This document shows, piece by piece, positions 10,212-22,864 of a stretch of DNA of 64,000 nucleotides. Numbering within the stretch: position 1 is the first letter of the stretch; every line of letters begins with the position of its first letter. Under the pieces are notes generated by a model that ran no database searches, had not been told where the DNA came from, and saw only the letters and a program-made list of their open reading frames with translations. The position numbers were made by a program, and so were the translations under genes. Location of the stretch: NCBI RefSeq assembly GCF_007856155.1, contig NZ_CP042266.1, positions 5,642,001 through 5,706,000 on the forward strand, given 5' to 3'. The stretch is from Streptomyces qinzhouensis. Its GTDB lineage: Bacteria; Actinomycetota; Actinomycetes; Streptomycetales; Streptomycetaceae.

Positions 10212-13200
10212 CTAACGCTCCTGGTTGTAGGTACTGCCCGGACCACCCTGGTGATCGTGGGTGGCCGGTCCGTTCGTGTCCGTTCCCGCGCTGCGCCCCC
10301 GCTGGACACCGCGGCGCAGATTGCTCAGCCTGCCACGAACGTCCTCCGGGGCGCGCGAGATCTGCGGAAGCCCGTGCTGAGGTGTCTCCTCCGCGGTGCC
10401 CTCGACGAGGTTGGCCTTGGGCACCCGGCGCGGCAGCCCGGACGAGGTGACCCCGCCCGCCTTCGGCTCCCGCAGCTTCTCCGCCCGCTGCCAGCGCTCG
10501 TCGTTGGCCGAGCGCCAGTCCTGCGCACCGCCGTCCGCGGCCCCGTTGCCGCTGTCGGTGACCGCCTCGGGCCCGGCGCCCTGCGGCGCCTGCGGAACCT
10601 GCTCCCCGGACGGCTGCCACTGCTGCGGCCGCTGCACGTCCTGCTCGGACCGCGGACGCGGTGCGCCGCGACGGGGCAGACCGGCGTCGGTCAGCTGGTG
10701 ACCGCTGCTCGGAGAAGGTCCCGGACGCTCGAAGCCTACGCTCTCCGCACCCGTGGTGGGGCCGCTGTGGCCGGATTCCGATTCGCCCCGGTACTCCTGT
10801 TCGTAACCGCCGGAAAGGGCGTTCGGTTCCGGCCAGTCGTCCTGCTGGGCCCGGGTGTTCCACGGGGTTGCCGACGGCTGCTCACCCGTCGCGGAATCCG
10901 GGAAGCCGGATTCCGGATAGCCGCCCGCCGGGTACTGGGGCTCATATGTCCCATGGGGCTGGGGGGACTCCGGCGAGGTTCCGGCTCCGGGGAACGCGGC
11001 GGCCTGATCGGGGGTCTCCCGGTAGACCGGCATCGGCTGGGTGTGGTGTGCCCCGCCGCCCTGGTAGCCGTCGGCCGGATAGCCGTCGTACGTCTGCTGC
11101 CCGGATCCGTAAGGAGCCGTACCGCCGCTCAGGTCGGGGGCCGGGAACGTGCCGGTGCTCCCGCCCTGGGCCGCATACGGGTCCGCGCCCGGGACCTGAC
11201 CCTGTCCCTGGATCTGGCCCTGTCCCTGGACCTGACCCTGGCCCGGGAACCCGCCCTGGGCGTAGCCGTCGAACGGCTGCTCCCCGGCGGGCTGCTGATA
11301 GCCCGGCGGCTGTTCGGCCGGCGGCTGGTGGGCGGACTGGGCCTCCAGCGCCGCGCGCCGTCCGCCGCGGGCCAGGGACCGGCCCACCGGGTCAAGACCG
11401 CGCCCGCCGGACTGCGGCTGCTCGTAACGCGAGTCGTCGAAACCGAGTTCGGCGGCGGTCCGCAGCGGTGCGGACGGGACCTGTGCCCGGTTCGGCCGGC
11501 TCTCCTGCTCGGGGATGATCCCCGAGACCGTGAAGTCGTCCTGGGGCGTCGGCTCGCCACCACCACCATGGGTGATCGCGTCCGGGAGCATCACAAGAGA
11601 CGTGGTGCCCGCCTGCTCGCCCGAGGGGCGCAGCTGGACCCGGATACCGTGCCGGTCCGCGAGCCGGCCGACCACGAACAGACCCATGCGCTGGGAGACC
11701 GAGGCGTCCACGGTCGGCGGGTTCGCCAGCTTGTGGTTGATGTCCGCGAAGTCCTCCGCGGTGAGCCCGATGCCCTTGTCGTGGATCTCGACCATGATCC
11801 GGCCGTCGGGCAGCCGGGTCGCGGTCACCCGGACCTTGGTCTGGGGGGAGGAGAACGTGGTGGCGTTCTCCAGCAGCTCCGCCAGCAGATGGACCAGGTC
11901 GGTGACCGACTGTCCGTGGATCTCGGTCTCCGGTACGCCGGAGAGCTCGATCCGCTCGTACGACTCCACCTCGGACGACGCCGCCCGCAGTACGTCGACC
12001 AGCGGCACCGGCTGGTTCCAGCGGCGGCCGGGCTCCTCGCCTGCGAGGACCAGGAGGTTCTCGCCGTTGCGGCGCATCCGGGTGGCCAGATGATCGAGCC
12101 GGAACAGACTCTCCAGCTGGTCCGGGTCGGCCTCGTTGTTCTCCAGCTCGGTGATCAGCCCGAGCTGACCCTCGATGAGCGACTGGTTGCGGCGGGAGAG
12201 ATTGGTGAAGATCGCGTTGACGTTGCCCCGCAGCATGGCCTGCTCGGCGGCGAGCCGGACGGCCTCGCGGTGGATCTGATCGAAGGCGCGGGCCACCTCG
12301 CCGATCTCGTCACGGGTGTCGATCGGGATCGGTTCGACCCGGGTGTCGACCCGGCCGGGCTCGGTCCTGGAGAGCTGGTCGACCAGGAGCGGCAGCCGCT
12401 GCTCGGCGATGGCGAAGGCGGCGGAGCGCAGTTCCCGCATCGACCGGCTCATCTGCCGGGCCACGGCACCGGCCAGTACGAAGGAGGCGAGCAGGGCGAT
12501 CACGACGATCGCGCCGTTGAGGATCGCGTCCCGGCGGGCGTCGGCGGAGATCGACGACGCCTCGGCCACCGCACGGTCCACCAGCTCGGTCTCGACCTGG
12601 AGATAGCCCTCGAACTTGGCGGTGGCGACGGCCGTCCACGTCCGGGGCGTGATGCCCGCGTTCGCGAGGTCCCGGGGCGCGGCCCCGCTGCCGATCCGCT
12701 GGGCCATTCCGCTGAAGACGGTGCCGTCCGGGCCCGCCGAGACGGCGGAGCCGGACTCCTGGAGCCGCTGGGCGCCCTGCTCGGCGGCCTTCCGCATCAG
12801 GGTCTTCAGCAGCTCGGCATCCGCCGACGTACCGCCGGACTGGAATTCGGCGATCGCTATCTGTTCCAGATAGTTGTACGAGTTGAACGCCGTGACCTGT
12901 TTGTCCCGGACGTTCTCGCGGCTGTTGGGGCGCACCAGGAGATGGATGCCGATGGACCGCTGCAGGGACGCCGCGGCCTTGGCCAGCTGAACCGCGTAAA
13001 CGGTCCTGCCGTAACTGGTGACATTGCCGGTGCCCAGACCCAGCTCATTGGCGAACGCCATCAGCGAGTGCTGGACCTGGACGTAACCCTGCTCGGTGCC
13101 GACCGGATCGGTCGCGGGCCGGTAGGCGTTCTCCCGCAGTTCGGCGAGGTTCTTCTCCTCGCCGCGGAAGATTTCCAGCCGGCGCTCCAGACCGTGCCCC

Positions 13201-13646
13201 TGGGGTATGTCCCGGGTGATGCGGTCGAACTTGGCCTTCGCCGCGTCCGTGGTGGCGCGCACCTTCTGCACGGCCTCGGTGGGTGTGGGCGACTTCAGCA
13301 GCGGCTCGGCGGTCAGATCCCGCTCGTTGAGGAGGGCCGCGCCGTACTCGGACGCGGCCCGCACGATCTTCGCCGTCTTCTCGGCGTCCTTGGCCTCGTC
13401 CCAGGTGTCGATCGACCCGCTCACCTGAATGCCGCCCATGAACAGCCCGACCAGTACGGGCAGCAACAGGATCGCGTTCAGCCGGGTCGGCACGGACCAG
13501 TTGCGCGGGGAGTACCGGCTGGTGCCACCGCCCGGGGCGGGGGAAGCGGGCTCCGGCTCCTCGCCGGGCGTCGCCTCCGCGCGCGACGGCGGGGTGAAAT
13601 TGCCCCGCGCCTGCTGCTCTGCGGAGCCTGTGCTGCTTCGCCTCAC
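10212..13646 (-). CDS. cvnA: Conservon sensor histidine-kinase-like ATPase CvnA (first conservon)
   Basis: 1144 residues, start near 13646. Order: basic cytoplasmic N-terminus, first membrane helix at about residues 57-77 (LNAILLLPVLVGLFMGG), an extracellular sensor domain of about 290 residues of the nitrate/nitrite-sensor type, second membrane helix at about 387-407, a HAMP-like linker, a dimerisation-like helix (RNGENLLVLAGEEPGRRW) and an HATPase_c domain (LLENATTFSSPQTKV N-box, HDKGIGL G-box, MGLFVVGRLA). The last 450 residues or so are disordered: Pro, Gly, Gln and Ser rich, with GQGQVQGQGQIQGQGQ repeats, ending in a conserved basic RGRLSNLRRGVQRGR motif. It heads the operon and would pass a membrane signal to CvnB-D. 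No cognate response regulator is nearby, as usual for conservons. Confidence 0.93.
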   Translation of the reverse strand: MRRSSTGSAEQQARGNFTPPSRAEATPGEEPEPASPAPGGGTSRYSPRNWSVPTRLNAILLLPVLVGLFMGGIQVSGSIDTWDEAKDAEKTAKIVRAASEYGAALLNERDLTAEPLLKSPTPTEAVQKVRATTDAAKAKFDRITRDIPQGHGLERRLEIFRGEEKNLAELRENAYRPATDPVGTEQGYVQVQHSLMAFANELGLGTGNVTSYGRTVYAVQLAKAAASLQRSIGIHLLVRPNSRENVRDKQVTAFNSYNYLEQIAIAEFQSGGTSADAELLKTLMRKAAEQGAQRLQESGSAVSAGPDGTVFSGMAQRIGSGAAPRDLANAGITPRTWTAVATAKFEGYLQVETELVDRAVAEASSISADARRDAILNGAIVVIALLASFVLAGAVARQMSRSMRELRSAAFAIAEQRLPLLVDQLSRTEPGRVDTRVEPIPIDTRDEIGEVARAFDQIHREAVRLAAEQAMLRGNVNAIFTNLSRRNQSLIEGQLGLITELENNEADPDQLESLFRLDHLATRMRRNGENLLVLAGEEPGRRWNQPVPLVDVLRAASSEVESYERIELSGVPETEIHGQSVTDLVHLLAELLENATTFSSPQTKVRVTATRLPDGRIMVEIHDKGIGLTAEDFADINHKLANPPTVDASVSQRMGLFVVGRLADRHGIRVQLRPSGEQAGTTSLVMLPDAITHGGGGEPTPQDDFTVSGIIPEQESRPNRAQVPSAPLRTAAELGFDDSRYEQPQSGGRGLDPVGRSLARGGRRAALEAQSAHQPPAEQPPGYQQPAGEQPFDGYAQGGFPGQGQVQGQGQIQGQGQVPGADPYAAQGGSTGTFPAPDLSGGTAPYGSGQQTYDGYPADGYQGGGAHHTQPMPVYRETPDQAAAFPGAGTSPESPQPHGTYEPQYPAGGYPESGFPDSATGEQPSATPWNTRAQQDDWPEPNALSGGYEQEYRGESESGHSGPTTGAESVGFERPGPSPSSGHQLTDAGLPRRGAPRPRSEQDVQRPQQWQPSGEQVPQAPQGAGPEAVTDSGNGAADGGAQDWRSANDERWQRAEKLREPKAGGVTSSGLPRRVPKANLVEGTAEETPQHGLPQISRAPEDVRGRLSNLRRGVQRGRSAGTDTNGPATHDHQGGPGSTYNQER

Positions 13647-13996
13647 TCGACCAACAACCTCTCGGCGCCGGCACCGGTACTGTGCCGTGTTTCGTTCTGA
13701 GCCGTACTACTGGGAAGTTCGTCGAATTTCAGCATGCGGACCGGGTCCGTTCCAAACAGTTGGAATCAGCCATTCCGGGTCGCCGAGCGGCACGATAAAA
13801 CGGGCATAAAGAGCGAGCCCTTTCAAAAGTTATGGTTTTCGTGAGCGCAGGGGCACCGGGTGACCGCATCGGGTGTCCGCAGGACCGTAATTCCATGTCG
13901 AAACGTTATGAACATGCGGGCGGACCGTGTCAAAGGACACAGCCCGCACCCGCTTGGTCAACCCGCTTGGTTACGACAACTACCGTATCCGGTCGT
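13647..13996. promoter_or_regulatory. 350-bp spacer between the two conservons
   Basis: No gene is seen. It holds the promoter region of the first conservon (reading leftward) and the 3' end of the second. It is clearly less GC-rich than its surroundings around 13680-13900 (runs such as CTTTCAAAAGTTATGGTTTTCG), as expected for a promoter. No inverted repeat strong enough to call a terminator was found by eye. Confidence 0.5.
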
Positions 13997-14581
13997 CTAC
14001 TTGAGCCGTGCCATGAGGGCGTGCTCGACGAGCGTGATGAGGGCGCTCTTCGCATCACCGCGGTGGCGTGCGTCGGTGGTGATGATGGGGGTGTCGGGTC
14101 CGATCTGGAGGGCTTCGCGGACTTCTTCGGGGGTGTAGGGCTGGTGTCCGTCGAAGCCGTTGAGGGCGATGACGAAGGGGAGGCCGCTGTTTTCGAAGTA
14201 GTCGACGGCGGGGAAGCAGTCGGCGAGGCGGCGGGTGTCGACGAGGACGACGGCGCCGATGGCGCCGCGGACGAGGTCGTCCCACATGAACCAGAAGCGG
14301 TCCTGTCCGGGGGTGCCGAACAGGTAGAGGATGAGGTCCTGGTCGAGGGTGATGCGGCCGAAGTCCATGGCGACGGTGGTGGTGGTCTTGTCGCCGGTGT
14401 GGGTGAGGTCGTCGATGCCGGCGGAGGCGCTGGTCATGACGGCTTCGGTACGCAGCGGGTTGATCTCCGAGACGGCGCCGACGAACGTGGTCTTACCCAC
14501 GCCGAAGCCGCCCGCCACCACGATCTTCGCGCTGGTGGTCGATCTCGGAGCCGTACCGCCGCTAGAGCTTGCGAAGTCCAC
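13997..14581 (-). CDS. cvnD: Conservon small GTPase-like protein CvnD (second conservon)
   Basis: 194 residues from GTG at 14581. It has the same domain layout as the other CvnD: P-loop GGFGVGKTTFVG, G3-like FGTPGQDRFWFMW, and no NKxD. The proteins differ at only a handful of positions: near residues 8-14 (TAPRSTT versus APRSTT), RHRGDAK versus RHRADAK, and a Lys instead of Arg at the end. 481 bp of the two genes are identical, far closer than the cvnA, cvnB or cvnC pairs, which suggests gene conversion or very strong selection. It overlaps cvnC by 20 bases. By recalled synteny this conservon corresponds to S. coelicolor cvn1. Confidence 0.93.
   Translation of the reverse strand: MDFASSSGGTAPRSTTSAKIVVAGGFGVGKTTFVGAVSEINPLRTEAVMTSASAGIDDLTHTGDKTTTTVAMDFGRITLDQDLILYLFGTPGQDRFWFMWDDLVRGAIGAVVLVDTRRLADCFPAVDYFENSGLPFVIALNGFDGHQPYTPEEVREALQIGPDTPIITTDARHRGDAKSALITLVEHALMARLK
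14059..14539. repeat. 481-bp block identical to 8384-8864
   Basis: This is the second copy of the shared cvnD block. Boundaries are marked by CATCACCG versus CGTCCG on one side and GGTGGTC versus GGTGGTT on the other. Confidence 0.9.
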
Positions 14582-14963
14582 TGAGCACCCTTTCGAGCAG
14601 TGTCACGTCCGGCGTACCGCCGGCGTCGCCGTTGCCCGGCTGGTGGATCGCCACCATGCCGGCCTCCGCCAGGTCGGCCACCAGGATCCGGGCCACGCCC
14701 AGCGGCATCGACAGCAGCGCCGACACCTCCGCGACCGACTTCACCTCACGGCACAGATGGCAGATCCGCTGGTGCTCGGGGAGCAGCCCCCCCAGCAGCG
14801 CGGGATCGGCGGTGGTGCTGACCAGGGCCTCGATGGCGAGCTGGTAGCGCGGCCGGGTCCGGCCGCCCGTCATGGCGTACGGGCGGACCAGCGGCTGGTC
14901 GCCATCCACTCCGTAGTCGGTTTGGACACCGTACGGATCGTGAGAGGCGGGTGGCGGGGTCAT
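14562..14963 (-). CDS. cvnC: Conservon DUF742 protein CvnC (second conservon)
   Basis: 133 residues from ATG at 14963, preceded by GGAGG with 4-base spacing; an upstream start at 15140 would overlap cvnB and lacks a site. It consists almost only of the DUF742 domain (LVRPYAMTGGRTRP, EHQRICHLC, LLSMPLGVARILVADLAEAG), without the long Pro/Gln tail of its paralogue. As part of cvnA-B-C-D it should connect the sensor kinase-like protein with the GTPase. The 124 bases between cvnB and this gene are wider than elsewhere in the operon and carry no recognisable feature. Confidence 0.92.
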   Translation of the reverse strand: MTPPPASHDPYGVQTDYGVDGDQPLVRPYAMTGGRTRPRYQLAIEALVSTTADPALLGGLLPEHQRICHLCREVKSVAEVSALLSMPLGVARILVADLAEAGMVAIHQPGNGDAGGTPDVTLLERVLSGLRKL

Positions 14964-15087
14964 GAGTCCTCCGGGCGGGACAGCAAGTGGGTGGCGTGCC
15001 GTCGGTGCGGCCGGTGGGGGCGGTGGCGACCGGGGCGGTGGCTGACGGGCGCGATGGCGCGGGCTGGGAGACCAGGAGCCTGGCTGA

Positions 15088-15510
15088 TCAGTGCAAGAGG
15101 CTTCCCTGGAGCTCTGCACGGAGATCCGGGGTGAGCACATTGCCCGCCCGGTCCACCAGCAGGGCCATCTCGTAGCCCACCAGACCGATATCGCACTCGG
15201 GGTGCGCCAGCACGGCCAGCGACGAACCGTCGGAGACGGACATCAGGAAGAGGAAACCCCGCTCCATCTCGACGACCGTCTGGCTGACGGTACCGCCCTC
15301 GAAGATGCGGGAGGCACCCGCGGTCAGCGAGGTCAGTCCGGAAGCGACCGCCGCCAGTTGATCGGCGCGATCACGCGGAAATCCTTCGGACATGGCCAGC
15401 AGAAGACCGTCGGCGGAGACCACCACCGTGTGGGACACCCCGGGGGTGTTGTCCACGAAGTTCGTGATCAACCAGTTCAGATTCTGCGCCGCCTGGCTCA
15501 TCGGGCTCAA
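15088..15510 (-). CDS. cvnB: Conservon roadblock/LC7 protein CvnB (second conservon)
   Basis: 140 residues if the TTG at 15510 is used. This TTG directly follows the cvnA TAG, lies 6 bases from GGAG, and matches the GTG position of the paralogue. The ATG at 15501 is the alternative (137 residues). It carries a full roadblock/LC7 domain with the same motifs as the other CvnB (VVSADGLLLAMSEGF, LTSLTAGASRIF); the two proteins differ at roughly ten positions. It is the expected partner of the CvnD GTPase and is part of the tightly packed cvnA-B-C-D operon. Confidence 0.92.
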   Translation of the reverse strand: MSPMSQAAQNLNWLITNFVDNTPGVSHTVVVSADGLLLAMSEGFPRDRADQLAAVASGLTSLTAGASRIFEGGTVSQTVVEMERGFLFLMSVSDGSSLAVLAHPECDIGLVGYEMALLVDRAGNVLTPDLRAELQGSLLH

Positions 15511-18500
15511 CTAACGCTCCTGCTGGTGTGTGGGGCCGAGGTCGAAGCTGCCGGTCGACGAGCCGTTCTGCTCGCGCCCCTGCTGGATGCCGCGCCGGAG
15601 GTTGGTGAGCCGGCCGCGGACGTCGTCCGGTGCACGCGAGACGGAAGGACCGCCTTGGCTGCCGTGCTGCTGTGCCGTGCCCGCGACCAGATTGGCGCGC
15701 GGGACCCGGCGGGGCAGACCGGACGTGGTGACACCGCCCGAAGCGGGTTTCCTGACCCGTTCGGCCTGGCGCACCAGCTCGTCGTTGGGGGAGGACCGCC
15801 AGCCCGCGTCGCCCGGGCCCGCTTCGGTTCCGCCGGTCGGCGGTACCGGGGCCTGCGGCGCCGGATCGTGCCGGGGTACCGGCACCGGGGCACCGGCCGG
15901 ACCGAACCGGTCGGCCTGGTCGAACCGGCCGGTGTGCCCGGCCGGGCCGGGCTGTCCGCCCTGGTCGTACGGGACCGGCCGGCCGCCCTGGACTCCCTGG
16001 GGGCCAGGACCGCCCTGACCGTTCCGGCCGATCTGCGGAATCGGCTGGGTCTGCTGGACCGCACCGCCCGGGAACGGCTCCCCGGCGCCCGGCCGGTCGG
16101 ACGTCTCGGCCCGGCCGGTCCGGTTCTGACCACCCTGGTTCTGACCGGTGTGGTTCTGGCCGGCGTGGCTCGGGCCGTCCTGGTTCTGACCGCCCGCGTT
16201 CTGGCCGCGGAACCAGTCCGTCTCCAACGTGTCGTACAGCGGCGTACCGCCGTCACCGCGCGCGGGGGGCAGCGCCTCGTGCCGCGGCTGCGGCGGCAGC
16301 GCGTGACGGGCGGCGGTCTGCTCCTCGTACCCGTGGGGCGCGGGCGCCCGGCCCGGCTCGGGCGGCTGCGGCGCACCCGTGCCGGGGCGGGCGAACTGCC
16401 CGCCGGGCGGCGGACCGGCCGGCTCGCCGAAGCGGGGCTCACGGTCCCCGGCGCCCTGCGGCGGAGCGAACCGGTCCGCGGCCGGGGCGGTCCGGGGCGG
16501 CTGAGCCGGTCCGGGGCCCTGGGCGGGCGGCCCGAACACATCGTCGCGGACGTACTGGCCCTGCGGGGCGCTCGGCGCCGCCGGCTGCGGGGCGGCCGGG
16601 GCCTCGAAAGCGCGCGGGGGGAGGCCCGCCCGGTCCTGGCGGTCGGCCGGCGGGCTGCCGAACTCCTGGCGCGGGAACCCCCCCGTCCCGGCGGGGCCCT
16701 GCGGGGTGCCCGGATCGTCGTGACCGCGCACCGTGTCGGCGCCCCGGCCGGCGGGTGCGCCCGGAGCGTTCCGGCCGCCCGCACCATCGTTCGGGCCGCT
16801 GTTCGGACCGCTGTTCGGACCGTTACTGGGACCGCTGTTCGGACCGTTGTACGCGCCGGGGCGCTGGTCGCTGCCCCAGCTCGGGCCCGCGGGCCGGCCG
16901 CGGCCCGCGTCCGGAAGTTCGTTGCGCACCGGGGCGGGACGGCCGTCGGCGCCGAGCCGCGGCAGTGCCGCGGTGTCACCGGAGGCCGGGCCGTTGCCGC
17001 CGCCGCGCTGGGCGCCGCGGTTGCCGAAGGCCCCGGCGAGACCGCCACCGCCCTGCGGCCGTCCGCCGCCCGGGGCACCACCGTCACGGGACGGCAGCGC
17101 CGCCCGGGAACCCGCGCCGTTGCCGGCGCCGACCTGGCCGCGCGGCGCACCCGCGCCGAGCGGTCCGCCTGCCGGGGCGCCCTGGCCGCCGGGGCGGCCG
17201 CCGTTCGCCGCGCCGGGGCCGTTACCGGGTCCGGCGCCGAGGGGCGCGCCGCCGTTCGGCGGGGGCGTCCGGCCCTGGGCACCGGCGGGCGCACCCGGCG
17301 CGGGCTGCGGCTTGCGCCCACCCTGGGCGACATCCACCGGCAGCATGACCAGTGCGGTCGTACCACCGGATTCCGACGGGCGGAGCTGGATGCGGATGCC
17401 GTGCCGCAGGGACAGCCGGCCGACCACGAACAGACCCATGCGGCGGGAGACCGAGACATCCACGGTCGGCGGCGAGGCCAGCCGCTCGTTGATCGCGGCC
17501 AGGTCCTCGGGGGAGAGGCCGATACCCGTGTCGTGGATCTCGACCAGCACCCGGCCGTCGGGCAGGGCGTGACCGGTGACCCGGACCTTGGTCTGGGGGG
17601 AGGAGAACGAGGTGGCGTTCTCCAGCAGCTCGGCGAGCAGGTGCACGAGGTCGTTGACGACCCGGCCGGCGACCTCGGTCGCGGGGACCGCCGCCAGCTC
17701 GATGCGCTCGTACTGCTCCACCTCGGACGCGGCCGCGCGCAGCACGTCGACCAGCGGCACCGGGCGGGTCCAGCGCCGGCCGGGCTCCTCGCCCGCGAGG
17801 ACGAGGAGGTTCTCGCCGTTCCGGCGCATACGGGTCGCCAGGTGGTCCAGCTTGAAGAGGGACGACAACTGGTCCGGGTCGGCCTCGCGGGACTCCAGCT
17901 CGGAGATGAGCGACAGCTGACGCTGAATCAGACCCTGGGAGCGGCGCGACAGGTTGGTGAACATCGCGTTGACGTTGCCTCGCAGCAGCGCCTGCTCGGC
18001 GGCGAGCCGGACCGCCTCGCGGTGCACCTCGTCGAAGGCCGCGGCCACCTTGCCGATCTCGTCACGGGAGTGCACACCCACGGACTCCACCGAGGTGTCG
18101 ACGTCCTCCGGGTCCGACTCGGACAGCTGCTTGACCAGCTCGGGCAGCCGGTCCTGAGCGACCCTGGTGGCGGTGTCCTGGAGGCGGCGCAGCGACCGGA
18201 TCATGGACCGGGCCACGATGAAGGCGCCCACCAGCGAGACACCGAGGACGAAGAAGATCAGCGCACCGTTGATGATCGCGTCGCGCTTCGACTCCTCGCG
18301 CAGTTCGCGGGCCTTGGTCTCCAGGTCGTCCAGGAGGGACGACTCGATGAGCTTCATGGCGTCGATGCGGGCGCTGTAGGCGTCGGTCCAGTCCAGATGC
18401 GACTGCGCACGCGCGTTCTTCAGCCCGTTGGAATCCTTGAAGGCGCGGTCGGCGAGGCTGGCGACCGTCGCGATGTCGGGACGGTTGTGCTCCATGGGCG

Positions 18501-19620
18501 CCAGCACCTCGAGGGCGTTGCCGTCCAGGGACTCGTAGGCGTTGGTGAACTTGTCCAGGGCATTGTCCATGCCGTTCTGGGCGCCCTGGCCGTAGAGACG
18601 GTCGGCCTCGGACAGGCTGGTGCCCTTCTGCCCGCCGCCGCCGGGCAGCGCGGCCGCGATCACCGCCTGCTGGATGGAGGCGTACTCCTTGGCGGCCGCG
18701 AAGGCGGACAGCGCGCGGGCGCGCTTGATCATGTCCTGGTTGTTGGTGGCCTGGGCCATCTCCGAGGAGAGGTCGAGCAGCGAGTTGATGAGCTGGTGGT
18801 ACGCCTCGACCGTGAGGGCGCTGGAGTTCCGGTTGTTGTACGCGGTCTTCCGGATCTCGCTGATCTTGTTGAGCTGCGCGTAGATCTGGCCGAGCGTGGT
18901 GCGGAAGGCGTTGATGGTGTCGTCGCCGTCGACGATGTTGACGCCGACACCCGCTTCGAGGAACGTCTTCGCCGCCCGGTCGGTGGCCTCACGGGGCTCG
19001 ATGACCTTGAAGTCGGAGGCGTTGGGGTTGTTCGCCAGCGGTCCCGCCGTGGTGTCCCGCTCGTACTGCAGCGCGATGGCGAGCTTGCTCGCCTCCTGGG
19101 ACATGTCGGTGAGCAGCTGCATGTGTTCGAGCTGCTTCATCCGGTCCATGGACTCGTTGATCCGCAGCCCGCCGAGCGCCGTCGCGGCGACGACGGGGAG
19201 GGTCAGCAGGGAGACCAGCCGGGTGCTGATGCGCCAGTTGCGCAGGGCCAGGCGGGAGCCGGTGTCCACCGGGGCCGGGGATCCGTCGGACTCGCCGTCG
19301 CCGGACGCCGGGCCGGAGCCGGTGGGGGAGGGGCCGCCGCCCGTGGGGCCCTGGGGGCCGCCGGGACCGCCGGAGGGGCCGGTGGGCCTGCCGCCCTGGG
19401 CGGGGGAGCCGCCGGGGCCGGAGGGCGGTCCGGGCCGGGCGCCGGGACGGCCGGGAGCGCGGTCACCACCGGGTGCCGCCGGACCCTGGCCGGGATTCTG
19501 GGCGTGCTGGGCGTGCGGAATGGGCTGGGGCGAGGAGCCGTGGTCGGCACCCGCGCGCGGCTCTTGTCCCGCCGCGGCTTCCCCTCGGCCCTGGGGGTCC
19601 CTCTTGAAACGTCCCTGCAC
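15511..19620 (-). CDS. cvnA: Conservon sensor histidine-kinase-like ATPase CvnA (second conservon)
   Basis: 1369 residues from GTG at 19620. It has a disordered Gly/Pro-rich cytoplasmic N-terminus of about 115 residues, then a membrane helix (LVSLLTLPVVAATALGGL), an extracellular helical nitrate-sensor-type domain, a second helix (DAIINGALIFFVLGVSLVGAFIV, about residue 440), a HAMP-like linker and an HATPase_c domain (LLENATSFSSPQTKV, HDTGIGLSPEDL, MGLFVVGRLS). A tail of about 610 residues follows, extremely rich in Gly, Pro, Gln and Asn, with NGPNSGPSNGPNSGPNSGPN and GQNxxGQNxxGQN repeats. It ends in the same basic RGRLTNLRRGIQQGR motif as the other CvnA. Both tails look like scaffolds that could self-associate. 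It is first in its operon. Confidence 0.93.
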   Translation of the reverse strand: MQGRFKRDPQGRGEAAAGQEPRAGADHGSSPQPIPHAQHAQNPGQGPAAPGGDRAPGRPGARPGPPSGPGGSPAQGGRPTGPSGGPGGPQGPTGGGPSPTGSGPASGDGESDGSPAPVDTGSRLALRNWRISTRLVSLLTLPVVAATALGGLRINESMDRMKQLEHMQLLTDMSQEASKLAIALQYERDTTAGPLANNPNASDFKVIEPREATDRAAKTFLEAGVGVNIVDGDDTINAFRTTLGQIYAQLNKISEIRKTAYNNRNSSALTVEAYHQLINSLLDLSSEMAQATNNQDMIKRARALSAFAAAKEYASIQQAVIAAALPGGGGQKGTSLSEADRLYGQGAQNGMDNALDKFTNAYESLDGNALEVLAPMEHNRPDIATVASLADRAFKDSNGLKNARAQSHLDWTDAYSARIDAMKLIESSLLDDLETKARELREESKRDAIINGALIFFVLGVSLVGAFIVARSMIRSLRRLQDTATRVAQDRLPELVKQLSESDPEDVDTSVESVGVHSRDEIGKVAAAFDEVHREAVRLAAEQALLRGNVNAMFTNLSRRSQGLIQRQLSLISELESREADPDQLSSLFKLDHLATRMRRNGENLLVLAGEEPGRRWTRPVPLVDVLRAAASEVEQYERIELAAVPATEVAGRVVNDLVHLLAELLENATSFSSPQTKVRVTGHALPDGRVLVEIHDTGIGLSPEDLAAINERLASPPTVDVSVSRRMGLFVVGRLSLRHGIRIQLRPSESGGTTALVMLPVDVAQGGRKPQPAPGAPAGAQGRTPPPNGGAPLGAGPGNGPGAANGGRPGGQGAPAGGPLGAGAPRGQVGAGNGAGSRAALPSRDGGAPGGGRPQGGGGLAGAFGNRGAQRGGGNGPASGDTAALPRLGADGRPAPVRNELPDAGRGRPAGPSWGSDQRPGAYNGPNSGPSNGPNSGPNSGPNDGAGGRNAPGAPAGRGADTVRGHDDPGTPQGPAGTGGFPRQEFGSPPADRQDRAGLPPRAFEAPAAPQPAAPSAPQGQYVRDDVFGPPAQGPGPAQPPRTAPAADRFAPPQGAGDREPRFGEPAGPPPGGQFARPGTGAPQPPEPGRAPAPHGYEEQTAARHALPPQPRHEALPPARGDGGTPLYDTLETDWFRGQNAGGQNQDGPSHAGQNHTGQNQGGQNRTGRAETSDRPGAGEPFPGGAVQQTQPIPQIGRNGQGGPGPQGVQGGRPVPYDQGGQPGPAGHTGRFDQADRFGPAGAPVPVPRHDPAPQAPVPPTGGTEAGPGDAGWRSSPNDELVRQAERVRKPASGGVTTSGLPRRVPRANLVAGTAQQHGSQGGPSVSRAPDDVRGRLTNLRRGIQQGREQNGSSTGSFDLGPTHQQER

Positions 19621-20231
19621 TAGCGTCGCAACCTCTGAACCAGGCGTTCCGCTGCACTACGGCTGTACTGCGACGGAACGGTGTCGGCGTCTGGCGAGGC
19701 ACGGAGCCGCGCCTCTGGTGATGTGGATACCGGCGCTCTCCCCCTTTCCCGCCGCCGCTCGGCGCTGCGTTGCGCCGCTTGCGCGCCGGACGGTGTCTGC
19801 GGCGGTGCGTGGAATTCCAGCACAGTGCCGGATCTCCAACAAGGGCCGCGTACCGTGCTGTGACCTGGGTGACACGGTGTGAGTACCGAGTCACGAACCG
19901 TTGAAAGAATTACGGTATGAATCGGACTTTCTCGGATGAGTCACCACGGCTTGAGGGGTGAGTGGGTCATGCCCAGGTCGTTGCGATCGGGAGCGGAATC
20001 GCCGCTTCAGGTAGACAATGTCCGTTTCGCTGGTTGAATTTGACGGTATGTAATGTCCAAAAACAGCGACTTTGGCTGAAGCTTGGTGAGGAAACTCACA
20101 CCAGCGACACATGTCCTCCACGACTTTGCCGGGAATCGGATGTTTAACCTGTCGCGTTAGGCAAGAGCGCCTCTGTTGTAAAGCGCCGCCCCGAAGAGGC
20201 GGCCCTACGCCGATGGGTCTGAAGACAGCCG
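19621..20231. promoter_or_regulatory. Intergenic region upstream of the second conservon
   Basis: About 610 bases hold the leftward promoter(s) of the second conservon and the rightward leader of the small peptide gene. The segment 19880-20160 is distinctly AT-richer (for example TTGAAAGAATTACGGTATGAATC, split here only for description). GCCGCCCC-GAAGA-GGCGGC near 20187-20206 can form a hairpin just before the peptide gene. Short frames in this interval have atypical composition and are not called. Confidence 0.5.
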
Positions 20232-20405
20232 ATGAAGACGACCATGCTGCTCCGCACGATAGCCAACCCCCGCCGCACCACCCTGATGCACCTCAAGGAC
20301 GCCGGTGAACTGGCGGCTCCGGAGCGGCAGGAGCACTCCCTCGACCTCCCGACGAACACGGCCAACCCGCGCCGCACGATCCTGATGGAGGCCCCGGCCT
20401 CCTGA
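20232..20405 (+). CDS. Unrecognised 57-residue peptide with two ANPRRT-x-LM repeats
   Basis: ATG at 20232 to TGA at 20403-20405; an internal ATG at 20244 is an alternative start (53 residues). 53 of 57 codons end in G or C, strongly suggesting real coding despite the small size. The peptide has a clear internal duplication: residues 9-19 (TIANPRRTTLM) and 43-52 (TANPRRTILM), separated by an acidic linker with ELAAPERQEHSLDLP. No signal peptide, cysteine pair or membrane segment is seen. No convincing ribosome binding site precedes it. It lies between the second conservon (divergent) and the FAH-family gene (same strand, 193 bases downstream). I do not recognise a family; possibilities include a processed peptide precursor or a peptide partner of a regulator. 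Both are speculative. Confidence 0.7.
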   Translation: MKTTMLLRTIANPRRTTLMHLKDAGELAAPERQEHSLDLPTNTANPRRTILMEAPAS

Positions 20406-20598
20406 GGCCGGGCCCGCCGCCCCCGGAGCACGCCCCCGGCGGCCGGCGGGCGGCACCGCGCACTTCCCGAGCCCCGGGGCCCGTCCCGCACGGCCCCCGG
20501 GGCTCGGCCGTGCGCCGGGCGGCGGGGGCCGGTGCCGCGTTAGCCTGGACCGTCAGACTCCAGCAGCGTCACCAGCAACAGAGGGGCAGCGGCATCCC

Positions 20599-21384
20599 GT
20601 GCGCATCGCCAGGTTCTCCATCGACGGCCATGTGGCCTTCGGCGCGGTCGAGGGCGAGGCCCCTGACGGACTCGTCCTCGACATCATCAAGGGAGTTCCG
20701 TTCGCGGACTTCGAGCTGTCCGGCACCAAGGTCCCCCTGAACAAGGTCCGGCTGCTGCCGCCGGTCCTCCCCAGCAAGGTCGTGGCCTTCGGACGCAACT
20801 ACGCGGCGCACGCGGCGGAGCTGGGCAACGAGCCCCCCGCCGAGCCCTTCGCCTTCCTCAAGCCTTCCACCTCGGTCATCGGGCCCGGCGACGCGATCGG
20901 CTACCCCTCCTTCTCCCAGGAGGTGCACTACGAGGCGGAGCTCGCCGTGGTGATCGGCCGGATGTGCCGGGATGTGCCGCGCGACCGGGTCAAGGACGTC
21001 GTCCTCGGCTTCACCTGCGCCAATGACATCACCGCGCGGGACGTCCAGCTCCGGGAGAAGCAGTGGGCCCGGGCCAAGGGCTTCGACGGTGCCTGTCCCC
21101 TCGGCCCCTGGGTGGAGACGGACATCGACCCGGCGGCCGCGGGCGACCTCACCATCCAGTGCACGGTCAACGGCGAACAGCGTCAGCTCGGCTCCACCCG
21201 GGACATGATCCACTCGGTCGAGGACCTGATCGTCAACATCTCCGAGGCCATGACGCTGCTGCCCGGCGATGTGATCCTCACGGGCACCCCGGCCGGAGTC
21301 GGACCGCTCAACGTCGGCGACGAGGTCGCCGTCACCATCCAAGGCATCGGCACTCTCACCAACAAGGTGATCAAGCGTGGCTAA
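20599..21384 (+). CDS. Fumarylacetoacetate hydrolase (FAH) family protein
   Basis: 261 residues from GTG at 20599. FAH-fold enzymes hydrolyse or decarboxylate acyl-pyruvate-type compounds, and many act as oxaloacetate decarboxylase or acylpyruvase. The family core is visible: [17 protein letters not shown] (about residue 57), a metal-binding set in [14 protein letters not shown] (His-x-Glu-x-Glu, about 110), and [14 protein letters not shown] and [15 protein letters not shown] near the end. The real substrate is unknown. It overlaps gltX by 8 bases, so the two are co-transcribed and probably translationally coupled. This pairing appears to be conserved in streptomycetes (recalled). Confidence 0.9.
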
Positions 21385-22864
21385 CGCGAACGTCCGCGTA
21401 CGTTTCTGTCCCTCGCCGACCGGCAACCCCCATGTGGGCCTGGTCCGCACCGCCCTCTTCAACTGGGCCTTCGCCCGCCACCACGGCGGCACCATGGTCT
21501 TCCGCATCGAGGACACCGACGCGGCCCGGGACTCGGAGGAGTCGTACGGGCAGCTGCTCGACTCGCTCCGCTGGCTCGGCCTGGACTGGGACGAGGGCCC
21601 CGAGGTCGGCGGCCCCCACGCGCCGTACCGCCAGTCGCAGCGGATGGACCTCTACGCGGACGTCGCCCACCGGCTGCTGGAGTCCGGGCACGCGTACCAC
21701 TGCTACTGCACCACCGAGGAGCTGGACGCCCGCCGCGAGACGGCCCGGGCCGAGGGCCGCCCCTCCGGTTACGACGGCCACTGCCGCGACCTGACCGCGG
21801 AGCGGAAGGCCGCCTACGAGGCCGAGGGCCGGTCCGCCATCGTCCGCTTCCGGATGCCCGACGAGCCGATCACCTTCACCGACCTGGTCCGCGGCGAGCT
21901 GACCTTCACCCCGGAGAACGTGCCCGACTACGGCATCGTCCGGGCCAACGGCGCCCCGCTGTACACCCTGGTCAACCCGGTCGACGACGCCCTGATGGAG
22001 ATCACCCACGTACTGCGCGGCGAGGACCTGCTCTCCTCCACCCCGCGGCAGATCGCGCTCTACAAGGCGCTGATCGAACTGGGCGTCGCCAAGGAGATCC
22101 CCGCCTTCGGACATCTGCCGTACGTCATGGGCGAGGGCAACAAGAAGCTCTCCAAGCGCGACCCGCAGTCCTCCCTCAACCTCTACCGCGAGCGCGGTTT
22201 CCTCCCCGAGGGCCTGCTGAACTATCTGTCGCTGCTCGGCTGGTCCTTCTCCGCCGACCAGGACGTGTTCTCGGTCGCCGAGCTGGTGGAGAAGTTCGAC
22301 ATCGCGGACGTCAACGCCAACCCGGCCCGCTTCGACCTCAAGAAGGCCGAGGCGATCAACGCCGACCACATCCGCCGCCTGGATGTGAAGGCCTTCGCCG
22401 CGGCCTGCGAGCCCTGGCTGACGGCCCCGTACGCCGACTGGGAGCCGGCGCGGTTCGACCGGGCCGCCTGGGAGGCGATCGCCCCGTACGCCCAGACCCG
22501 GCTGACCGTGCTCTCCGACATCACCGCCAATGTCGACTTCCTCTTCCGCGACGAGCCCGTCGACGACGAGGCCTCGTGGACGAAGGCGATGAAGCCGGGC
22601 GCGGCCGAGCTGCTGGTCACCGCGCGCGAGAAGCTCGCCGCGGCCGACTGGAACAGCCCCGACGCGCTCAAGGAGGCCGTTCTGGCCGCCGGCGAGGCCC
22701 ACGGCCTCAAGCTCGGCAAGGCCCAGGCCCCGGTCCGGGTCGCGGTCACCGGCCGTACGGTCGGACTGCCGCTCTTCGAATCGCTCCAGATCCTGGGCGC
22801 CGAGCGGACCCTGGCCCGGATCGACGCGGCCCTGGCCAAGCTGGCGGCACAGCCCGCCGCGTAA
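21377..22864 (+). CDS. gltX: Glutamyl-tRNA synthetase, probably non-discriminating
   Basis: 495 residues from GTG at 21377, overlapping the preceding gene by 8 bases. It is a class I synthetase: the first signature appears as [18 protein letters not shown] (HIGH variant HVGL) and the second as KKLSKRDPQ, with the anticodon-binding alpha-helical C-terminal domain after about residue 330. Streptomycetes lack a glutaminyl-tRNA synthetase, so this enzyme is expected to charge both tRNA-Glu and tRNA-Gln with glutamate, GatCAB then amidating the latter. Fittingly, two tRNA-Gln and three tRNA-Glu genes lie about 0.9-1.3 kb downstream. Confidence 0.95.

Follow-up and report, generated by a model that had tools for sequence, protein, structure and literature searches.

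An uncharacterised small gene paired with cvnA across the Streptomyces family encodes a repeated ANPRRT motif, a candidate bivalent docking peptide

Introduction

Among accessory proteins of conservons, which are G-protein systems of actinobacteria, CvnF and CvnE offer the closest described comparison for the small gene considered here. According to the available part of PMC13343842, CvnF carries a GAF domain and CvnE a P450 domain; both are encoded after the cvnA-D operon and are found with CvnA proteins without a sensory domain. The small gene resembles them in being tied to one conservon and in being a candidate modulator of its components, but it does not share the features that mark the class: its protein has no known domain (no Pfam or NCBIfam match), it is divergent from cvnA, and the CvnA of the window (the whole 64,000-nucleotide stretch of DNA analysed) has NIT and HAMP domains. 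Bivalent short-linear-motif peptides in general are alike in another way, since they combine a repeated short motif, a flexible linker and little else that is conserved; we know of no motif class with ANPRRT.

Other groups have tied the conservon operon beside the small gene to the control of sporulation. In the available excerpts, BldC, BldD and WhiAB are placed at the cvn1 promoter in S. venezuelae (PMC6428758), cvnA1/sven5239 is listed among WhiB targets (PMC4850268), and cvn1 genes are repressed on ppGpp synthesis (PMC2374992) and by cell-wall antibiotics (PMC3123327). Those excerpts of PMC6428758, PMC4850268 and PMC2374992 make no mention of the small gene, and the ones from PMC3123327 and PMC11472566 hold nothing on it. 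Literature searches with S. coelicolor and S. venezuelae locus tags guessed from neighbouring genes, and with the string ANPRRT, returned no paper on the small gene; a report under another name is possible. SCO5546 was considered as the small gene and rejected, as it is listed in 42 of 44 actinomycetes in the part of PMC3224560 available and is probably the FAH-family gene instead.

Results

The frame of the small gene (Table 1) and its translation, MKTTMLLRTIANPRRTTLMHLKDAGELAAPERQEHSLDLPTNTANPRRTILMEAPAS, are exactly as an earlier note on this DNA had claimed, and a recount agrees with the 53 of 57 codons ending in G or C given there. The two ANPRRT-x-LM copies that the earlier note read as a duplication (ANPRRTTLM and ANPRRTILM) form an internal repeat beyond chance: an ungapped self-comparison over 10 residues matches at best 8 of 10, a score reached in 0 of 3000 same-composition shuffles (maximum 7, in 2 shuffles). 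Inspection found the chain between both motifs to be mostly acidic or neutral and revealed no hydrophobic signal sequence. Across the Streptomyces loci read, the protein is 57–77 residues long. It is a member of no known family in Pfam, NCBIfam or PHROGs (0 matches at E ≤ 10) or among PDB sequences (no match). Searching protein sequences at E ≤ 1 yielded 592 relatives; among the 120 listed, many are entered as 'hypothetical protein' in Streptomyces, and most of the name-bearing ones carry that name. The term 'unannotated' is thus right as to function and wrong as to the records, which name these relatives, and the gene is uncharacterised rather than unannotated.

Table 1. Features of the window around the small gene
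Feature	Position	Strand	Remarks
Second CvnA	10212-13646	-	after cvnD-like ORF
ORF placed as cvnD	13997-14581	-	named by gene order and features
ORF placed as cvnC	14562-15140	-	named by gene order and features
ORF placed as cvnB	15088-15510	-	named by gene order and features
cvnA (presumed cvnA1)	15511-19620	-	NIT, HAMP, HATPase sensor kinase; C-terminal tail SGLPRRVPRANLV
Conserved noncoding block	19968-20027	.	relatives hold GTGTCCCAGTCG...GGAATG...AATGTCCGTTT
Conserved palindrome GTGAGGAAACTCAC	20086-20099	.	Crp-site-like (GTGA-N6-TCAC); 105/105 regions
Conserved block GGGAATCGGATGTTTAACCTGTCGCGTTA	20131-20159	.	stringent form in 83/105 regions
Orphan small protein gene	20232-20405	+	57 residues; start ATG, stop TGA
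Motif copy 1, ANPRRT	20262-20279	+	residues 11-16; context TIANPRRTTL; exact in 105/105 genes
Motif copy 2, ANPRRT	20361-20378	+	residues 44-49; context TANPRRTxLM
Strong inverted repeat after stop codon	20467-20507	+	no T run; absent from terminator-scan list
FAH-family hydrolase gene	20599-21384	+	
gltX, glutamyl-tRNA synthetase	21377-22864	+	class I Glu/Gln synthetase domains

Homologous frames exist throughout the Streptomyces family, and the gene is a real one, family-wide in its distribution. In a first search it was found in 35 of 61 genomes (35 of the 37 of the genus and 0 of the 24 others), the terms genus and family here meaning Streptomyces and its family, as judged from the titled loci (79 of 80 Streptomyces, one Kitasatospora). 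A family search matched 287 of 297 genomes at E ≤ 1e-3, the full 297 matching only at the loose E ≤ 1. Among the ten weaker genomes (E > 1e-3), G061, G064, G077 and G090 hold both motifs, G074 and G133 (76% complete) showed no motif on re-examination, and the remaining G079, G088, G097 and G197 are counted at E ≤ 1 only. A profile check of 31 genomes picked by hand, mostly distant or missing ones, matched 27 at E ≤ 0.1 (the misses being G001, G010, G061 and G074), and a wider profile added one more of these 31, with both motifs seen.

Neither the 61-genome search nor a class-wide profile search of 296 genomes gave a convincing relative outside the family. The class search, which scored only the best candidates per genome and left 227 of the 296 without a match, matched strongly in 28 genomes, all of the genus; short partial stretches in 21 other genomes of the class (E between 0.003 and 0.05) were judged to be chance. 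Two genomes, G010 (93% complete) and G074 (98%), keep cvnA and FAH-gltX and have no recognisable small gene, which is therefore not universally required. Frameshifts in relatives had been named earlier as a possible refutation; the 105 Streptomyces genes read are all open to a stop. Several rows of the 297-genome search show one stop within the aligned stretch, and these are probably natural gene ends: the query exceeds the window protein in length, and the row of the window itself likewise shows its natural stop there.

Selection on the two motifs was examined in 105 genes (103 distinct, two contigs occurring twice) that remain from 110 loci. L012 was left out since its contig holds no stop for the gene, and L019, L024, L026 and L054 because they did not fit the required start pattern, [MV]K[TA] and then T, A or M; these four begin MRTT, VKKTT, MRTT and MKST, respectively. 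All five dropped loci keep both motifs (copy 2 is ANPKRT in two), and the invariant KTT start of the 105 genes is partly a product of this selection. The synonymous-versus-nonsynonymous comparison proposed in the earlier note did not refute the gene, substitutions in the motif codons being strongly synonymous: pN/pS, which here pools non-independent pairs, is 0.054 in the twelve ANPRRT codons, 0.515 elsewhere and 0.427 over the whole gene, and the motif columns vary mostly at third positions. Each repeat is conserved, copy 1 being exact throughout and copy 2 reading ANPRRT in 95 genes, ANPKRT in 9 and ANPLRT in 1, so that two exact copies stand in 95 of the 105 genes and at least one in every gene. 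Start-to-start spacing of the motifs is 33 residues in 100 of the 105. Both copies of this one short motif are under purifying selection and the sequence outside them is less constrained, with some parts (TTLxHL after copy 1, the start MKTT) also well kept within Streptomyces. Codon identity of the motif copies is 0.656 within genomes and 0.654 between them; gene conversion is therefore not what keeps the copies alike, and each seems to be separately selected.

This pattern extends beyond the genus. Among 27 aligned proteins of Streptomyces and further family genera, rows chosen for recognisable motifs and so leaning towards invariance, eleven columns do not vary (A11, N12, P13, R14, R15, T43, A44, N45, P46, R48 and T49). 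In other family genera the linker differs in both length and sequence and the N-terminal end diverges, while both motifs usually stay. Both copies are seen in 26 loci (7 of the genus and 19 of other genera), one of which, L163, has NPNRT as its second motif; they are exact in the deep-branching L201, and the deepest branches read STANPRRTQVD...RTANPRRTNLMDAP. The protein of L160 ends soon after the second motif. The clearest natural exception is the genus genome G169 (locus L241), with ANPQRT and ANVRRT; together with ANPQRT as the first motif of P0084 and NPRRS as that of L149 and L151, it shows that the motifs are not absolutely fixed. A degenerate DNA pattern for the motif, which also admits Ser codons, was located 42 times across six genomes, the small gene's own two copies making up 12; 9 of the other 30 were inspected and had ANPRRT in unrelated contexts, and the motif looks particular to the small gene.

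Two further features of the coding region were observed. The Ile codon before motif 1 (window 20259-20261) is ATA, a rare codon in Streptomyces, in 47 of the 105 genes. At L145 a further TANPRRT copy, the third, stands in frame ahead of the presumed start (near position 1453) and may belong to a longer three-motif version.

AlphaFold2 (27-row alignment) proposed no fold for the protein, returning a pLDDT of 62.5, a pTM of 0.16 and one 8-residue helix. A low pLDDT from 27 rows is weak evidence of disorder; the small protein is probably intrinsically disordered.

The small gene lies between the divergent cvnA, which we take to be cvnA1 (SCO5544, sven5239) from gene order, and the FAH-family gene, which starts about 190 nt downstream on the same strand and is followed by gltX. 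The placement 'between a conservon and gltX' given earlier is therefore correct on the cvnA side and passes over the FAH-family gene on the other. A fixed position beside cvn, FAH and gltX was likewise borne out in part: cvnA is adjacent and divergent in 110 of 110 loci, with FAH found in 107 (not in L004, L012 and L087) and gltX in 106 (not in these or in L030). Contig ends account for L012 and L087, and the end of the stretch examined for gltX in L030, which leaves only L004. Four genus genomes keep the small gene and cvnA, with neither FAH nor gltX found within 12–13 kb downstream; they fall into two pairs with similar new neighbours, reflecting one or two events. At these loci (L275-L278) other genes lie downstream of the small gene where FAH-gltX is usual, the first on the opposite strand and, as we take it from its sequence, carboxylase-like. 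Outside the family, FAH is present in five genomes of the order, and there the upstream stretch examined lacks both cvnA and the small gene. As the cvnA pairing is kept in the rearranged genomes, the small gene is linked more closely to cvnA than to gltX. Common promoter DNA can by itself keep a divergent pair together, and G010 and G074, which keep cvnA without the small gene, show that Cvn1 can exist without it.

Conserved regulatory DNA separates the pair. The intergenic region of about 610 bases has several blocks conserved in the 53 Streptomyces regions compared, and a GTGA-N6-TCAC palindrome stands 104–170 bases upstream of the small gene in each of 105 regions, taking the form GTGAG-N4-CTCAC in 103 of them and in 0 of 20 base shuffles of each region. 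With zero mismatches it occurs once in three of four genomes searched, always at the small-gene locus, and in the fourth it stands at that locus with one mismatch; other one-mismatch sites number 9, which does not exceed the 10 found for the control. The palindrome is kept in G010, which lost the small gene, and so may serve cvnA as well. A true Crp site was considered and set aside: the S. coelicolor consensus given in the available text of PMC10033298 is GTG(N)6GNCAC, and the palindrome departs from it at the G, for which reason we call it Crp-like only.

Nearer the small gene, the block at 20131-20159 is a candidate promoter region for it. In the block at 19968-20027 the stringent form of the middle part is present in 93 of the 105 regions, the window's own copy not matching; relatives have GTGTC there, the complement of the published WhiA motif GACAC, where the window reads ATGCC. 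Conservation over the 53 regions averages 0.97 at window 19812-19841, which is noncoding, and 1.00 at 19602-19631, which covers the cvnA start. A scan of 19600-20650 found no sigma-70-type promoter, a terminator scan gave one weak terminator-like site at 20154-20170, and in 19500-20700 the search for known RNAs gave only two chance-level Rfam matches far below the gathering score. The inverted repeat after the stop codon is a possible terminator before FAH.

Two conservons stand in tandem in the window (10212-15510, minus strand), and both of its CvnA tails end with S-G-L-P-R-R-V-P-x-A-N-L-V and S-R-A-P-x-D-V-R-G-R-L-x-N-L-R-R-G. The tail core SGLPRRVP was read in 66 of 76 CvnA sequences from related loci, that is, in all 66 reaching the C-terminal element. 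It is intact in G074, which is without the small gene; the tail motif therefore has its own job, and Cvn1 does not always need the small protein. At L273, the locus of the genus genome G010, the CvnA tail end reads in another frame, through a frameshift or a sequencing error.

Discussion

Two kept motifs, a changing remainder and no predicted fold make up the pattern expected where a flexible chain carries two short linear motifs, and the multivalent docking peptide suggested earlier is well supported by this constraint. We see about an even chance that the product is a soluble, disordered, bivalent docking peptide under developmental control, probably with a dimeric partner, and most likely tuning a cytoplasmic component of Cvn1. 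Each [I/T]ANPRRT-x-L element would be a short linear motif binding one site, and with two of them spaced by about 33 residues along a flexible and largely acidic linker, one chain could hold two sites, either on both protomers of a dimeric partner or on two partner molecules. As two kept motifs on a disordered chain would let one molecule hold two sites, a dimer is the natural target. The Cvn kinase is a dimeric candidate partner, and MfpD, a homologue of the roadblock protein, is a dimer according to an abstract. The small gene would be expressed under developmental control from the regulatory region common with cvnA, and its product would, in whichever direction, most likely tune the kinase, the roadblock protein or the GTPase of Cvn1. 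Modulation of CvnA8 by the accessory protein CvnF8, as described in the accessible portion of PMC13343842, is a precedent. A component of Cvn1 is the leading, if unproven, candidate partner; for a partnership with a nearby regulator, as proposed in the earlier note, the support is circumstantial, namely that the gene stays with cvnA and that a long conserved noncoding region lies between them.

A docking peptide of the same kind might have a partner unrelated to Cvn1, such as a developmental transcription factor, RNA polymerase, or a kinase phosphorylating the invariant Thr after RR, with the adjacency to cvnA following only from common regulatory DNA. The constraint pattern would be identical, the small gene was lost in G074 despite an intact CvnA tail, and several regulators are reported at the cvn1 promoter region in the available part of PMC6428758; yet cvnA is always alongside in the examined loci where the gene is recognised, and we regard this as possible though on the whole unlikely.

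Within the Cvn1 system itself, the small protein could instead be a soluble two-armed mimic of the CvnA SGLPRRVPxANLV tail under BldD, BldC and WhiAB control, occupying the docking surface that normally receives kinase tails and thereby uncoupling or bridging the kinase and the GTPase module. The tail motif, a short conserved element of a low-complexity tail, has S/T-G/A-x-P-R-R-V/T in common with the small protein, but it is a single copy within a kinase and continues as P-x-A-N-L-V. So short a resemblance may be mimicry or chance, and we hold this reading to be quite doubtful.

More doubtful still is a nucleic-acid or nucleotide binder, in which two N-P-R-R turns would bind DNA, RNA or a guanine nucleotide through their paired arginines. 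The twin arginine pairs are almost invariant, and the SPRR minor-groove motif is an analogy; against this, mostly acidic or neutral residues connect the two motifs, constraint on the Thr and Leu that follow RR is about equal to that on the arginines, and no family or solved structure matched.

Processing and leader functions fit less well than a docking peptide. The repeated motif with its RR pairs could recall a processed extracellular peptide or RiPP precursor with two cores cut at dibasic sites, but the absence of a hydrophobic signal sequence by inspection, the lack of any modifying enzyme between cvnA and gltX (the neighbours are cvnA, FAH and gltX, with no adjacent modification or export gene) and a motif nearly invariant across the family, where RiPP cores usually vary, make the processed peptide raised earlier very improbable. 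Least probable is a leader or attenuator peptide for FAH-gltX in which only translation of the frame would matter: FAH does lie close downstream on the same strand, but the gene is kept in the four genomes where its linkage to that operon was not found, a strong hairpin follows its stop in the window, and the constraint falls on the amino acids of two distant motifs and not on a codon run.

In the published accounts, as available in part, ChIP-seq peaks of BldC, BldD and WhiAB are credited to cvnA1, and from that region a family-wide small gene runs the other way. This gene is a small, easily mutated target in well-studied strains, and the ANPRRT motif is usable as bait. The conservon signal path is described as poorly understood in the available part of PMC13343842; an action of the small protein on Cvn1, if it has one, would add a new kind of input to conservon signalling, and mimicry of the kinase tail, if true, would be a novel mode of bacterial G-protein control during sporulation.
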